This document shows, piece by piece, positions 697-14,965 of a DNA stretch of 55,747 bases. Under the pieces are notes generated by a model. The model did no database searches and was not told the origin of the DNA. It worked only from the letters and a program-made list of their open reading frames with translations. The position numbers and the translations under genes are program-made. The DNA lies in contig RECR01000044.1 in the NCBI GenBank assembly GCA_007693955.1, forward strand, positions 1 to 55,747. The letters run 5' to 3'. The stretch comes from Gloeocapsa sp. DLM2.Bin57. GTDB taxonomy: Bacteria; Cyanobacteriota; Cyanobacteriia; Cyanobacteriales; Gloeocapsaceae. Every line of letters begins with the position of its first letter. Position 1 is the first letter of the stretch.

Positions 697-1329
697 TTAT
701 CTACTGGTAGCTAAAGCAGCGATCGCCCTAGTAGCTTGCTCATAATAAGCTTGCTCTCCTAGGTTAAAATAAAGTTGGGAAGCTTGCTCTAAATCTTGCA
801 ATGCTCCATTGCGATCGCCCATTTGATAACGAACCAAAGCGCGGTTATAATAGGCGTGGGGATACTCAGGAGCAAGATTAATCACGTTAGTATAATCTTT
901 AAAAGCGTTGTCTAACTCGCGCTGTTGATAATAGAGATTACCTCTTTGAAAATAAGCGGGAGCAAAACGAGAATCAAGCTTAATTACCTGAGTAAAATCA
1001 GCTATACTTCCATCAATTTCCAGTAATGATTGAGATAAAATCAAACCTCTGAGATAATAAGCAGAAATATCCTCTGGAGTGATTGCAATAACTCTATTAA
1101 TATCTTCTAGAGCTAAATGATACTTTTGCAACTCGTAATAAACTACGGCTCGATTATAATAAACTTGAGCATCTCTAGGATTAACCCTGAGAGCTTGATT
1201 AAACTGAATAAGTGCTCCTTGGTAATCACCCTGTTGATATTTATTAAGTCCTTCATTTAAATAGGTAACAGAGGTATTCTCAGCGACAATAACGATCGCG
1301 GGTTGGGGAGGCAAAGGATAAATATACAT
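697..1329 (-). CDS. Tetratricopeptide repeat protein
   Basis: 210 residues made almost wholly of tetratricopeptide repeats, about five in series from residue 23 to 185. The consensus positions are clear (YLNEGLNKYQQGDYQGALIQF, YYNRAVVYYELQKYHLALED, AYFQRGNLYYQQRELDNAFKDY, AYYNRALVRYQMGDRNGALQDL). TPRs build a superhelix that binds peptides, so the expected role is as an adaptor; no catalytic domain is present. The N-terminus has a short hydrophobic stretch (PAIVIVAEN) but no convincing signal peptide. It starts with ATG only 46 bases from the divergent DUF29 gene, so the two promoters must share that gap. Partner unknown. Confidence 0.8.
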   Translation of the reverse strand: MYIYPLPPQPAIVIVAENTSVTYLNEGLNKYQQGDYQGALIQFNQALRVNPRDAQVYYNRAVVYYELQKYHLALEDINRVIAITPEDISAYYLRGLILSQSLLEIDGSIADFTQVIKLDSRFAPAYFQRGNLYYQQRELDNAFKDYTNVINLAPEYPHAYYNRALVRYQMGDRNGALQDLEQASQLYFNLGEQAYYEQATRAIAALATSR

Positions 1330-1375
1330 CTTTTTTCGTGTTATAATAACCTAAATAAATAATAATCTAATTAAG

Positions 1376-1828
1376 ATGATACAGGTTATTTCTAGTTTAT
1401 ATGAACAAGATTATTATCTTTGGCTAGAGGAACAGGTCCACTCTCTAGAATCATTAGCTTTAGACAAGCTAGATGTAGCTAACTTAATCATTGAAATACA
1501 AGGAATGGGCAAAGCTGAAAAACTAGCTAAGACAAGTAATCTAAGAATTCTTTTAATGCATCTTTTAAAATGGATTTATCAAGATAAGAAAAGAACTAAT
1601 AGTTGTCAATATACTATCAGAGAACATCGTAAGAGAATTCTCAAAACCTTAAAACAAAGTCCTTCGTTAAAAAATTATTATCAAGAAATATTAGCAGAAG
1701 CATATCAAGATGCACGGGAATTAGCAGCAGATGAAACAGGGTTACCTATTACTATTTTTCCTGTGGAATGTGAGTTTACTACCGAACAGATATTAGATCC
1801 AGAATTTCTGACCAATCATCGTCAATAA
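1376..1828 (+). CDS. DUF29 family protein
   Basis: 150 residues matching the DUF29 family, very common in cyanobacteria. Recognisable parts are the N-terminal YEQDYYLWLEEQ, then LESLALDKLDVANLIIEIQGMGK, the central LRILLMHLLKWIYQ helix, and the C-terminal YQDARELAADETGLP segment. The family is small, helical and of unknown biochemical function; many copies occur per genome. It ends 15 bases before the AUU proposed as the recR start, with the recR ribosome-binding site directly after its stop, so the two are probably co-transcribed. No sign of truncation. Confidence 0.85.
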   Translation: MIQVISSLYEQDYYLWLEEQVHSLESLALDKLDVANLIIEIQGMGKAEKLAKTSNLRILLMHLLKWIYQDKKRTNSCQYTIREHRKRILKTLKQSPSLKNYYQEILAEAYQDARELAADETGLPITIFPVECEFTTEQILDPEFLTNHRQ

Positions 1829-1843
1829 AAAGGAAATAAGACC

Positions 1844-2434
1844 ATTTATACTCCACCTTTAGCCCGTTTAATCGAACAATTACAGCGTTTACCTGGTGTA
1901 GGAGCAAAAACAGCTCAACGTTTAGCTTTACACATTCTTAAACGACCTGAAACAGAAGTAATAGCATTAGCACAAGCCCTCATTGACGCTAAAAAACAAA
2001 TAGGATTGTGTAAAATTTGCTTTCATTTATCCGCTACCCCAATTTGTGAAATTTGTGCTAACCCTAACCGAGAGAAAAAAACTATCTGTGTGGTAGCAGA
2101 TTCTAGAGACGTAATCGCCCTAGAAAAAACTAGAGAATATACAGGATTATATCACGTTTTAGGAGGAGTAATCTCCCCCATGGAAGGAATAGGACCAGAA
2201 CAATTAAATATTCAATCTCTAGTTAACAGAATTGGTAAAGAGGAGATTACCGAAGTCATTATAGCTATTAGTCCTAGTATAGAGGGAGATACAACTACTT
2301 TATATATAGGTCAATTATTAAAACCTCTGACCAAAGTTACGAGAATCGCTTTTGGTTTACCAATGGGAGGAGATTTAGAATACGCTGATGAGATTACCTT
2401 AGCTAGAGCTTTAGAAGGACGTAGAGAGATATAA
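1844..2434 (+). CDS. recR: Recombination protein RecR, probably starting at AUU
   Basis: RecR works with RecF/RecO to load RecA at gapped DNA. The family N-terminus [19 protein letters not shown] is followed by a helix-hairpin-helix, a four-cysteine zinc finger (CKIC…CEIC, about residues 55-70), and a Toprim domain ([14 protein letters not shown]…). The conserved N-terminus lies in an open frame with no ATG, GTG or TTG upstream of 2006; a TTG at 2006 would remove about 54 residues including the helix-hairpin-helix. A Shine-Dalgarno-like AAGGA at 1830-1834 sits 9 bases before an ATT codon at 1844 whose next residues are YTPPLARL. Initiation at AUU gives 196 residues, the normal length. A start codon lost by mutation or a sequencing error is the alternative. 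Confidence 0.85.
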
Positions 2435-2499
2435 ACCTTATGTTATGTAAAACCGTACTGTTGTGAGGTAATATCTACACTATTTTTACCCTTAAAAAA

Positions 2500-2805
2500 A
2501 TGGCAAGATCAAGTTATCGAAGTAAACAAGGTACATCAATGCAAGCAATTATCAAACTCTTCTTTAACTGGTTTGGCAAAAATCTACGTAACTCTAAATA
2601 TCGTTGGTTACTAATTCTTGGGTCTCTATTTTATCTAGTAACTCCAATAGATATTTCTCCCGACTTTTTACCTGTGTTGGGATGGTTAGATGATGGAGTA
2701 GTTATTACTTTATTATTGAGTGAATTTACAGACTTAGTCATGGATTATCGGAATCGTCGCCAGAAAAAACAAGACTCAGACGCAATTGAAGTAGAAACGG
2801 TTTAA
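2500..2805 (+). CDS. YkvA-like DUF1232 membrane protein
   Basis: 101 residues with the DUF1232 core: a hydrophobic helix LLILGSLFYLVTPIDISPDFLPVLGWLDDGVVI, in which the P-x-D-x-x-P-D-x-x-P-x-x-G-x-x-D-D pattern is diagnostic. The family is a small membrane-associated module of unknown function. The ATG at 2500 is used; an internal ATG at codon 14 (2539) is also possible and would leave the domain intact. The C-terminus is charged. It is followed after 8 bases by a TPR gene on the same strand, so both likely share a transcript. Confidence 0.8.
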   Translation: MARSSYRSKQGTSMQAIIKLFFNWFGKNLRNSKYRWLLILGSLFYLVTPIDISPDFLPVLGWLDDGVVITLLLSEFTDLVMDYRNRRQKKQDSDAIEVETV

Positions 2806-2813
2806 TAACAATT

Positions 2814-3179
2814 ATGGACGCACAATCTTGGCATCAACAGGGTAATAATCTCGCTCAAAACAAACAATATCTAGCAGCTTTAGACGCTTATAAACAAGCG
2901 ATCGCTCTTGATCCTAATTACCCTCCTGCTTGGAATAATCTCGGTAATGTTCTCTGTGAATTAAAACGTTTAGGAGAAGCTTACGCAGCTTATGACAAGG
3001 CGATCGCTTTGTTGCCTACCTATCACCAAGCTTGGTATAATCGAGGTCTAGTTCTCAAAGAAATGGGGGCTTACGGTAACGCGATGGAGTCATTTAATCG
3101 GGCGATCGCTTTACATGAAAACGAACCAATTTACTTTCACCAACGCGATAGTATCTGGATACACAAAAAACTATTTTAA
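2814..3179 (+). CDS. Short tetratricopeptide repeat protein
   Basis: 121 residues with three consecutive TPR units (WHQQGNNLAQNKQYLAALDAY, AWNNLGNVLCELKRLGEAYAAY, AWYNRGLVLKEMGAYGNAMESF), each followed by an ALDPNYPP-type linker. The HIP1 octamer or a close variant is embedded at the equivalent place of successive repeats (AIAL coded by GCGATCGCT), a codon-level repeat typical of cyanobacterial TPR genes. It starts 8 bases after the DUF1232 stop. The C-terminus (YFHQRDSIWIHKKLF) does not look like a fourth repeat, so the protein may be a shortened member of a longer family. Confidence 0.75.
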   Translation: MDAQSWHQQGNNLAQNKQYLAALDAYKQAIALDPNYPPAWNNLGNVLCELKRLGEAYAAYDKAIALLPTYHQAWYNRGLVLKEMGAYGNAMESFNRAIALHENEPIYFHQRDSIWIHKKLF

Positions 3180-3243
3180 CCAATATTTTCCTATATCTGA
3201 TCAAAGGGTGTAGGATATTTATTATTAGGTTCAAAATAAAACA

Positions 3244-3849
3244 ATGTCTGATTGCGGTTGTCATATAGAAGCTAAAAATAAGCAACAGCGTAAAACTCTC
3301 AGAGTACTCCTGTTGATTAACTTAGTGATGTTTGTTGTCGAAAGCATTACGGGAGTGGTTGCCCAATCAACAGCATTAATCGCCGACTCTTTAGATATGT
3401 TAGCTGATGCTATTGTTTATGCTATCTCATTATATGTAGTAGGTCGATCATATCTTCACAAAGCGCGCGCGGCTAGTTTAAGTGGAGTCTTTCAAATTAC
3501 TTTAGCTTTCCTAGTCTTATTTGACGTAGTTAGAAAATATTGGTTAGGTAGTCTTCCCGAATCCTGGTTAATGGGTGGAATTGGTTTAATTGCATTAATA
3601 GCTAATATTTATTGTTTATGGTTAATTTCCAAACACAGAAACGAAGAAGTACATATGCGCGCGAGTTGGATATTTTCTAAAAATGATGTGATTGCTAATA
3701 TCAGCGTGATTGTCGCGGGTATATTAGTGAGTATCTTTAATTCTGGTATCCCCGATTTAGTAGTAGGTTTTGGTATTGCTGCTTTAGTTTTGTGGGGAGG
3801 AATTAAGATTATCCAAGAATCAAGAAGTTTTAAAGAAGAAAATAGTTAA
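3244..3849 (+). CDS. Short cation-efflux (CDF-like) membrane protein
   Basis: 201 residues with five or six transmembrane helices and two segments resembling the metal site of cation diffusion facilitators: STALIADSLDMLADA (Asp48, Asp51, Asp55) in the second helix, and SWIFSKNDVIANISVI in the fifth, where the usual HxxxD is replaced by NDxxAN. The cytoplasmic C-terminal metal-binding domain of full CDF proteins is missing, as in the short transporter family often annotated cation transporter. The N-terminus MSDCGCH carries two Cys and one His that could bind metal. Likely inner-membrane metal or proton-coupled transport; substrate unknown. It stands alone between two gaps. An inverted repeat of 8 bases (3848-3855 with 3875-3882) follows its stop, with a T-rich loop. 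Confidence 0.7.
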   Translation: MSDCGCHIEAKNKQQRKTLRVLLLINLVMFVVESITGVVAQSTALIADSLDMLADAIVYAISLYVVGRSYLHKARAASLSGVFQITLAFLVLFDVVRKYWLGSLPESWLMGGIGLIALIANIYCLWLISKHRNEEVHMRASWIFSKNDVIANISVIVAGILVSIFNSGIPDLVVGFGIAALVLWGGIKIIQESRSFKEENS

Positions 3850-3954
3850 TTTAGGTTATTTTTGTTTTTTTGCGCCTAAATTTAAGACCATAGCGAGTTA
3901 AACTATAATCATTTTTTATGTTATCATAATCTCAAAACATTTTAAAAAGTTATT

Positions 3955-12200: not shown

Positions 12201-13109
12201 TCAAAACGTAATAGCTTCAGAACGATAGTCTGGAGGTTCAACATGAATCATAACCCTTACTGGTGCATATTTTTGCTCTAACCTCCTTTCCACCTCTTCA
12301 GTTATTTGATGAGCAGTTTCTACATCTTCTGCTTTAACAATTAAGTGCATTTCAATAAAAACTTGTCTTCCTACCACACCGCGAGAAGCGATCTCATGAC
12401 AATTAACTACTCCTGGAACTTGCATCACTAACTCATAGATAGATTCAGGAGCGATCGCTACTTCATCCACTAACCAGGGTAAATTCTCTTTTAATACGGT
12501 CCAAGCGCTTTTAAACACCAAAAAAGCCACAGGAAAAGACAAAATTACATCCAACCACTGTAACTGTGGAAAACCCAGAGCATTTCCTTGCCAAATCCCG
12601 ATTAAACCAGCTAAAACCGTAATTGTCACCCAAACATCACTCATAGTATGTTCAGCATCAGCGATTAAAATTCTACTTCCTAAACGTTTTCCTACAGACC
12701 TTTCATAAAAAGTCACAAAAATATTAATACCCAAAACTATTAATAATATCCATAACTCGGTAGGTCCAATATTAACTTCTGTAATCCCCTCAAAAATTCT
12801 CTTGATTGCACCTTGAAGAATTTCAAAACTAACAATAGCCAAAAAAGCAACAATAGCTAAAGCACCAACAGCTTCATATTTCTGATGTCCATAGGGATGA
12901 TCTCGATCAGGGTAGGGTGAGGATAAGCTATTGGTTACTAAACCGAGAACATTACTAGCGCCATCTGTGGCACTATGTAAAGCATCTGCTTGTAAACTTA
13001 AAGAACCAGTAATCCAACCTATTACCCCTTTTAATAACACAACTAGGATGTTGAGAAAGAGGGTTATCAGTAAAACTTTTCTAACCCCAGCGCGATTATC
13101 TACTAACAC
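12201..13109 (-). CDS. Cation diffusion facilitator family metal exporter
   Basis: 302 residues with six transmembrane helices and a cytoplasmic C-terminal domain. The metal site has two HxxxD motifs: ADALHSATDGASN (Asp42, His45, Asp49) and ADAEHTMSDVWVT in helix V. DHPYGHQKYE after helix II is typical of the Zn/Fe/Mn group. The C-terminal part (VNCHEIASRGVVGRQVFIEMHL) is the regulatory dimer domain. It exports a divalent metal in exchange for protons; the exact metal cannot be read. The start is GTG at 13109: GAGG lies 8 bases upstream, while the nearby ATGs are out of frame. It heads the minus-strand run that includes the hybrid kinase and GGDEF regulator. Confidence 0.9.
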   Translation of the reverse strand: MLVDNRAGVRKVLLITLFLNILVVLLKGVIGWITGSLSLQADALHSATDGASNVLGLVTNSLSSPYPDRDHPYGHQKYEAVGALAIVAFLAIVSFEILQGAIKRIFEGITEVNIGPTELWILLIVLGINIFVTFYERSVGKRLGSRILIADAEHTMSDVWVTITVLAGLIGIWQGNALGFPQLQWLDVILSFPVAFLVFKSAWTVLKENLPWLVDEVAIAPESIYELVMQVPGVVNCHEIASRGVVGRQVFIEMHLIVKAEDVETAHQITEEVERRLEQKYAPVRVMIHVEPPDYRSEAITF

Positions 13110-13189
13110 ATTTTTAGCCTCAGTTCATTAATATATATTTTAGCCATAGACATTTATAAAAATAACTGTTATACTTAGGTTATTTATAA

Positions 13190-13320
13190 AATAGTCTGCT
13201 TAATCCTGAATCAGGAGCGGAGGAACCAATTTTGGGGCTTATTTTTAACCAAAGTTAAAGAAGGATATCTCTCAATCCTAGCCCGTCAGCTAACTTCGTA
13301 GGCAAAGAGGGAAGACGACA
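13190..13320 (+). promoter_or_regulatory. Cyclic di-AMP riboswitch (ydaO-yuaA type)
   Basis: The conserved parts of the ydaO-yuaA aptamer occur in order: GCTTAATCCTGAATCAGGAG (13198-13217) with its small hairpin, GCGGAGGAACCAATTTTGGG (13217-13236), a variable arm, then AATCCTAGCCCGTCAGCTAA (13274-13293) continuing with CTTCGTAGGC. The last block closely matches the Bacillus ydaO sequence as I remember it. In ydaO RNAs, two c-di-AMP molecules bind and usually switch expression off. It lies on the same strand as, and about 300 bases before, the permease gene at 13619. Outer-stem pairing is only partial by eye. Confidence 0.85.
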
Positions 13321-13618
13321 ATATCACTACATTACACAAACAATGTCTTGATAAAGTCAGTCAAATCGCTCGTAACTGTAAGGGTTTCACCCTGTGCTTA
13401 CCATACCTTTTGATTGGAGACGTTGTTTATGTCGGGAATTACTCACAAATTTTAATTAATTATCAATAGCTCTGTTATGTCCACCCTTTCTTAAGGAGGG
13501 AGATAATTATTTATTAATTTAGCAAATAAAGCTAACAATATCGTCATAAGCATTTTTTTAAATCCTGTTTATGGCTAATTCTTGAATATTTTGTACCATT
13601 AGCAATTAAGGTGAAATT
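13321..13618 (+). promoter_or_regulatory. Leader between the riboswitch and the permease gene
   Basis: About 300 non-coding bases. AGGGT (13381-13385) pairs with ACCCT (13389-13393) inside a longer GTAA…TTAC frame, followed by a weak T-rich stretch. A second, less regular hairpin surrounds CCCTT…AAGG near 13485-13497. Either could serve as the expression platform, but neither has a strong U-tract. An 8-codon open frame at 13430 is too short to call. AAGGTG just before the ATG at 13619 is a good ribosome-binding site. Confidence 0.4.
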
Positions 13619-14965
13619 ATGGAAATGATTAATAATTTACCAGCTGTGATATCAATTGTTACCTTTATGATAGTAATTGGTGTAATTATTTTCGATAAAT
13701 TGCATCTAACTATTGCAGGTTTATTAGGAGCATTAATCTTAGTTTTTACTCACGTAATGACTTTACAAGAAGCGGTAGAATATATCAGCTTTAGTTACGC
13801 TACCTTAGCTTTATTCTTTGGGGTTATGGTCTTAATCAGGGCGTTTGAACCTACTAAAATATTTGAGTATTTGGCGACACAAATTATTTTATTTGCTAAA
13901 GGTTCAGGTAAATTATTATTAATAGGAATTGTCCTGGTGACTACGGTGGTTTGTTCGGTTTTACCTAATGCAACCACAGTAATGTTATTAGCTCCAGTTA
14001 TTCCACCACTAGCTCAAGATTTAGGGATCAATTTTGTACCGTTACTAATCTTAATGGTCTTAGTCTCTAACAGTGCAGGTTTATTAACCTTAGTAGGAGA
14101 TCCAGCTACTTTTATTGTCGGACATTCTATTAATCTTAGTTTCTTAGAATATATGCAAAGACTTAGTTTAGGAGGAATACTAGCAGTAATTGTGATCTGC
14201 TTAATGTTACCCATATTATTTAAAAAAATGTGGCGAACTAAATATAGACATTTAGAAGACTTACCCCATCCTCAAATTAATCATCCTAGAGTGTTAGCTA
14301 TGGGTGGAGTAATTATGCTATTTGTGTTAGTATTTTTCGTGATAGGAGAATCATTTGTTGTCCCGATTTCTCCTGCTGCTGTAGCTTTAATGGGTGCAAC
14401 TTTGGCATTATTATTAGCTCATCATAGCAAAATTGATACAGTTCAGAATATTTTGCGAGATGTAGATTGGAGTACTCTACTGTTTTTTATGTCTATTTTT
14501 GTCTTAATTGGAGGGTTACAGAAAACAGAAGTTATTAGTAGTTTATCAGGAACTTTATCATTCATAATTGGTAAAAATGTTTTTGTGGGTTCTTTATTAC
14601 TACTATTTATTGTGGGATTATTATCTAATTTAGTTCCTAATATTCCCTTAGTAGTAGCAATGATACCCCTATTAAAACAACATTTAGTTACAGTAGGTTT
14701 AGCAGGTTCAGAAATTCTCGCTCACAATTATAGCGGATCATTTCCCCCAGAAGTTTTACCCCTATTTTATGCGATGATGTTCGGAGCTACTTTAGGGGGG
14801 AATGGTACGTTAGTGGGAGCTTCTGCTAATATTGTCGCCGCGGGAATAGCTGAACAACATGGTCAAAAAATTAGTTTTAAAACCTTCTTTAAATATGGGT
14901 TTCCGTTGATGTTAATACAGTTGACAGTAGCAGCTATTTATCTAATAATCAGTTTTTTGCTTTAG
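13619..14965 (+). CDS. ArsB/NhaD/SLC13-type membrane permease
   Basis: 448 residues with about 11-12 transmembrane helices in two related halves. Family marks: TTVVCSVLPNATTVMLLAPVIPPLA in the first half and LVPNIPLVVAMIPLL with FGATLGGNGTLVGASANIVAAGIA in the second, each a broken-helix substrate site; GDPATFIVGHSI is also characteristic. The ion transporter superfamily includes ArsB, NhaD Na+/H+ antiporters and dicarboxylate/sulfate carriers, so the substrate (Na+, an anion or organic acid) is not fixed by sequence. It follows the c-di-AMP riboswitch on the same strand, which would suit a transporter tied to ion or osmotic balance. Ribosome-binding site AAGGTG decides the ATG at 13619. Confidence 0.85.
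   Translation: MEMINNLPAVISIVTFMIVIGVIIFDKLHLTIAGLLGALILVFTHVMTLQEAVEYISFSYATLALFFGVMVLIRAFEPTKIFEYLATQIILFAKGSGKLLLIGIVLVTTVVCSVLPNATTVMLLAPVIPPLAQDLGINFVPLLILMVLVSNSAGLLTLVGDPATFIVGHSINLSFLEYMQRLSLGGILAVIVICLMLPILFKKMWRTKYRHLEDLPHPQINHPRVLAMGGVIMLFVLVFFVIGESFVVPISPAAVALMGATLALLLAHHSKIDTVQNILRDVDWSTLLFFMSIFVLIGGLQKTEVISSLSGTLSFIIGKNVFVGSLLLLFIVGLLSNLVPNIPLVVAMIPLLKQHLVTVGLAGSEILAHNYSGSFPPEVLPLFYAMMFGATLGGNGTLVGASANIVAAGIAEQHGQKISFKTFFKYGFPLMLIQLTVAAIYLIISFLL

Follow-up and report, generated by a model that had tools for sequence, protein, structure and literature searches.

When c-di-AMP levels rise, a riboswitch for this signal probably turns down an elevator-type transporter of the ArsB fold, itself probably an exporter of a small anion (chloride, for example), in the cyanobacterium Gloeocapsa sp. 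DLM2.Bin57, where it occupies the leader of a homologue of slr0753. We put the probability of this reading at about 0.68. The pair lies in a contig of 55,747 nucleotides (the window), and that the aptamer is real and belongs with the permease is practically certain. The Rfam covariance model for c-di-AMP switches of the ydaO/yuaA class matched the plus strand over its full length (model positions 1-134) with a score far over threshold (E 1.6e-18, computed over the whole window), and this was the sole match in the 3.45-Mb genome (Table 1). The preliminary description had placed such an aptamer in front of the permease on the same strand, and its start proved correct to within 3 bases. One diadenylate cyclase (DAC domain PF02457, 140.9 bits) and one phosphodiesterase (7TM-7TMR_HD domain PF07698, 96.9 bits) were found in the same genome, a gene content which points to the host making c-di-AMP.

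Table 1. Features of the riboswitch, its leader and the permease in the window
Feature	Position	Strand	Basis or remark
Sigma-70-like promoter, TAGACA-17-TATACT, extended -10 TG	13147..13175	+	10/12 consensus matches
c-di-AMP riboswitch aptamer including 3' tail	13187..13318	+	RF00379, 85.3 bits; gathering score 38
Pseudoknot, loop side CTCTC	13269..13273	+	pairs with 13307-13311
Pseudoknot, tail side GAGGG	13307..13311	+	shared with the outer stem of the hairpin after the aptamer
Post-aptamer hairpin (A:B), proposed ligand-free state	13307..13371	+	minimum-energy fold and covariation
Anti-Shine-Dalgarno arm (B)	13334..13365	+	on leaving the hairpin, can bind 13409-13432
Predicted masked slot: Shine-Dalgarno GGAG (13416-13419) and AUG (13429-13431), covered by arm B	13416..13431	+	folding, comparison
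8-codon ORF MSGITHKF*	13429..13455	+	occupies the masked slot
448-aa ArsB/CitMHS-type permease	13619..14965	+	PF03600 (CitMHS) 200 bits; PF02040 (ArsB) 60 bits, cut-off 22

The promoter-like site listed in Table 1 was the only one on the plus strand in 13050-13700, and transcription from it would start a few bases 5' of the aptamer. Chance alone would give about three sites of this quality per region, and this one therefore weighs mainly through its position. The aptamer is separated from the permease ORF, which is open throughout and has an in-frame stop shortly 5' of it at 13607, by a leader of about 300 nt. No ORF of at least 80 aa was found between the two, so that the earlier statement that no gene intervenes holds for genes of ordinary size; the one small exception is the 8-codon ORF, which has its own Shine-Dalgarno sequence. 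On the minus strand, a CDF-type zinc exporter (12201-13109; Cdf31 model, 547 bits) is encoded divergently, and its gene shares the intergenic region with the switch. A MIR477 match inside the permease gene (14730-14812; 23 bits against a cut-off of 65) was dismissed as chance.

The permease is predicted to have the ArsB fold. Its AlphaFold model (pLDDT 84, pTM 0.82) found ArsB of Leptospirillum ferriphilum (PDB 10tp) as top structural match, with a Z score of 44.8 over 419 residues and about 20% identity, followed by SLC13/DASS-type anion carriers of similar fold (Z of about 22-34). Curated NCBIfam models are more reserved: the permease scored 108, 101.7, and 100 bits with the ArsB models against cut-offs of 457, 760, and 415, and lay far under the cut-offs for DASS symporters and MamN. 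Thus, of the ArsB/NhaD/SLC13 assignment made before, the ArsB part stands, with the families ArsB and CitMHS, and the NhaD label had to be rejected (TIGR00775, 46.8 against 577.1 bits). The permease is a single strong copy; a second strong one is absent from the genome.

A switch in front of this permease has been reported before. A passage of a 2023 review (PMC10117731, citing Mantovani 2022 and Kobayashi 2006) states that slr0753 of Synechocystis, a putative chloride efflux transporter, is regulated by a c-di-AMP riboswitch. The window is a further case of this already reported pair, and the suggestion that its permease would extend the list of c-di-AMP targets falls away. In a Synechocystis salina record (G093, locus L179) and its congener G076, the switch lies 324 nt upstream of a permease homologue with 67-68% identity to the permease of the window; through these relatives, the latter is very probably an orthologue of Slr0753. 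Switch class, permease family, and gene order are the same in Synechocystis sp. PCC 6803 and in the window. The window leader differs in its slot of Shine-Dalgarno sequence and 8-codon ORF; no such slot stood out in either of the two Synechocystis-type leaders examined.

The pairing recurs widely, as the preliminary description had proposed to check; with the high covariance-model score, both grounds on which that description would have been refuted are thereby removed. Among 386 cyanobacterial genomes, 93 contain a c-di-AMP switch and 65 a match to the window permease, one of these matches being partial. In 31 of the 65 homologues, the switch precedes the permease on its strand by no more than 800 nt, and another 17 lie 0.8-5.7 kb downstream of a switch on the same strand, so that the pairing is kept in 48/65. 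The others have a switch a few kb off on the other side (4/65), no switch nearby (4/65), or a genome without a detected switch (9/65). Control of the presumed chloride exporter by c-di-AMP would thus be a wide cyanobacterial trait rather than a peculiarity of Synechocystis, and the signal would be tied to anion balance besides K+, and possibly to the chloride requirement of photosystem II. Of 140 switches with downstream DNA, 49 have as their first gene the ABC permease of an ABC operon of the NMT1 type, 36 the gene of a roughly 220-residue protein that often precedes the same permease, and 35 the permease itself.

We next describe the RNA elements that could connect the aptamer to translation. 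In the window, the loop and the tail of the aptamer form a pseudoknot of five pairs, one of them G-U. All five pairs are kept in 122 of 135 cyanobacterial switches, which none of 2000 shuffles reached, and the two sides covary (CTCTC/GAGAG, CTTCC/GGAAG, TTCTC/GAGAA, and other combinations). This loop-tail pseudoknot is already known from ydaO (PMC5393176, PMC9337991). The tail bases also belong to a post-aptamer hairpin. Because RNAalifold predicted no structure on the post-aptamer alignment, probably owing to loop-length gaps, we counted pairs on the named structure: in the dereplicated set of 36 switches from cyanobacteria, 84% of cells were paired (0/500 shuffles matched this) and 8 of 11 pairs showed changes on both sides. 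Sliding the register of the hairpin lowered pairing to 29-51%. Direct competition with the pseudoknot is confined to the outer hairpin stem (13307-13311); the inner one could remain in place in the ligand-bound state.

The 3' arm of this hairpin, arm B, is predicted to hide a translation start. When the tail (13300-13318) was held unpaired in folding, 13334-13349 paired with 13417-13432 and 13358-13365 with 13409-13416, and the chance of the GGAG bases being unpaired dropped from 0.04-0.43 to at most 0.02. The duplex between arm B and the slot has an energy of -21.1 kcal/mol, a value reached by 0.05% of shuffles of the arm and 0.25% of shuffles of the target; a search-wide control was weaker, with 5% of shuffled leaders containing a helix that matches the best in the window leader. 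Comparison of dereplicated leaders gave consistent results. Arm B paired the Shine-Dalgarno core in 11/11 leaders of the permease class and in 12/12 of the ABC class, and pairing with the own target was better than in swapped leaders (p 0.003 and 0.002, respectively). Likewise, the own start region beat shuffled arms, shuffled and swapped targets, and downstream control DNA in the permease class (n=11, p 0.0005-0.003), and the same four controls were beaten in the ABC class (n=12, p 0.0002-0.002); since the leaders were dereplicated at about 80% yet are still related, all these p-values are indicative. The class of the roughly 220-residue protein provided one usable dereplicated slot, and the masking claim covers the permease and ABC classes only. 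Some genomes have the start of the permease itself in the masked position, as in G169, where GATCTCCTGG faces CCAGGAGAT before the ATG, and for roughly 30 of the 49 ABC-type targets the slot, at 83-104 nt, belongs to the first gene of the ABC operon. Together, these results suggest that the anti-Shine-Dalgarno arm can alternate between the aptamer-side hairpin and the start site. They are, to judge from the literature searched, where we found no description of the expression platform of cyanobacterial c-di-AMP switches, new comparative evidence for a mode of control by start-site hiding in a cyanobacterial switch.

In the window, the start of the permease lies outside the switched helix, and the slot is filled by the 8-codon ORF, which ends 163 nt before the permease. 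Slots of this kind, with a Shine-Dalgarno sequence and ATG at 60-135 nt, were present in 9 of 18 leaders with a later permease start (shuffled mean 1.0; 0/300 shuffles reached the count). A conserved leader peptide was rejected, as the sister genome of the genus has MKLVIGYR in place of MSGITHKF. On one account, the 8-codon ORF is what remains of a first gene that was lost, and it may still bring ribosomes onto the leader. That in a branch of the cyanobacteria the switch masks the start of a tiny leader ORF, with ligand-set ribosome loading on the leader governing permease expression, we consider a tentative proposal, on the doubtful side.

We therefore propose a concrete translational platform for cyanobacterial c-di-AMP switches, with translational OFF control somewhat favoured on the strength of sequence comparison. 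With c-di-AMP bound, the tail would be held in the pseudoknot and the post-aptamer hairpin would open; the freed arm B would then cover the Shine-Dalgarno sequence and AUG about 100 nt past the aptamer, and translation would stop. Without ligand, the tail would pair with the arm and leave the start site exposed. In the window, control of the permease would be exerted by way of ribosomes occupying the leader, with effects on mRNA stability or on access to the permease start; alternatively, the masked ORF would be a mere remnant. The OFF direction rests on the competition between pseudoknot and outer hairpin stem and on characterised relatives. Since the pseudoknot excludes just that outer stem, the coupling of ligand to arm is put no higher than plausible.

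Other modes of control would fit parts of these data. As with the ydaO switches of Firmicutes, the ligand could make transcription end early within the leader, yielding a short RNA and less permease mRNA. Such attenuation would agree with Ncr1680, a short RNA from the slr0753 leader of Synechocystis that is joined to this gene, was separately detected, and is conserved in PCC 6714 (PMC5386190), and a looser scan of the leader did find a single hairpin at about 13474-13507 (-13 kcal/mol) followed by an A/T-rich stretch. However, that tail, TTATTTAT, is a poor U-tract, and a terminator scan found no terminator-like site in 13050-13700, as the preliminary description had also judged for the leader. 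Across relatives, the looser scan returned scattered, non-homologous hairpins, whereas start-site masking was consistent; we rejected an intrinsic terminator in the leader and regard attenuation as unlikely. The mode of control, previously called open, is thereby narrowed, with comparative support for a translational platform and no terminator seen. The reverse logic, in which c-di-AMP stabilises a stack of the aptamer on the hairpin behind it and so frees the start site, draws on the compatibility of the inner hairpin stem with aptamer P1, which makes coexistence possible. We hold this ON switch to be improbable, given that bases 13307-13311 are common to the pseudoknot and the outer stem and that PMC9337991 and PMC9960051 describe c-di-AMP switches of the OFF type.

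It is just as improbable that control by the switch ends at the short leader ORF, or at a small RNA that stands alone, with the permease expressed from an internal promoter of its own. The slot is conserved in position though not in peptide, and PMC5386190 lists a leader RNA for Synechocystis, both as this account would have it; but the leader of the window contains no promoter-like site on the plus strand, the permease itself fills the slot in several genomes, and the switch has stayed with the permease in 48 of its 65 homologues. Concerning the substrate, chloride has slightly better than even odds on account of suppressor genetics in another species, Synechocystis: the chloride requirement of a psbV mutant was relieved by three independent suppressors, all of them in slr0753 (recounted in PMC9896922). 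A different anion (arsenite, silicate, sulfate, or a dicarboxylate) is a lesser though appreciable prospect, for which the structural matches to ArsB and then to SLC13/DASS anion carriers speak, and against which stand these suppressors and scores of 100-108 bits under all NCBIfam ArsB cut-offs (415-760). The earlier idea of a substrate tied to ion balance is borne out as plausible.

The proposed translational OFF control resembles that put forward for the nlpC switch of C. glutamicum (PMC9960051), in which an anti-Shine-Dalgarno arm would have two alternative partners, a GGAG upstream of it and the ribosome site; the nlpC switch differs in its cell-wall peptidase target, in its host group (Actinobacteria), and in masking the start of the target gene itself. 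The ydaO/yuaA switches and other c-di-AMP switches of Firmicutes (PMC9337991, PMC6488665) have the same aptamer and pseudoknot, and their pseudoknot/P1 nucleotides alternately pair with the expression platform. They differ in their targets, which are K+ and osmolyte genes, and the tandem switch of PMC9337991 differs in using an intrinsic terminator.

Several further switch targets were seen in the survey. The commonest is the NMT1-type ABC operon, consisting of a permease, a binding protein of 450-480 aa, and an ATPase (locus L069 of genome G121, 820-3870, and 48 other loci); this type of switch is absent from the genome of the window and present in the sister genome. The proteins of about 220 residues, which follow the switch directly and in Nostoc-like genomes often precede the same permease (for example L146, G195:C68), had no Pfam match and by eye look like universal stress proteins. 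In L080 (G070) and L104 (G407), a conserved protein of 85-100 aa (MFKIGDLVQHKTTGKIGKIVGYG...) that lacks a Pfam match lies between switch and permease. Rarer targets, sharing an operon with the permease or replacing it, are a P-type Ca2+-ATPase-like gene, an ExoD gene, and a CPA2-type antiporter (L057 in G014, L134 in G105, L158 in G253, and L078 in G066). Finally, in five genomes (L169 in G189, L127, L129, L121, and L102) the gene after the switch encodes a glycosyltransferase of group 1, about 425 aa long, which may have a link to compatible solutes.
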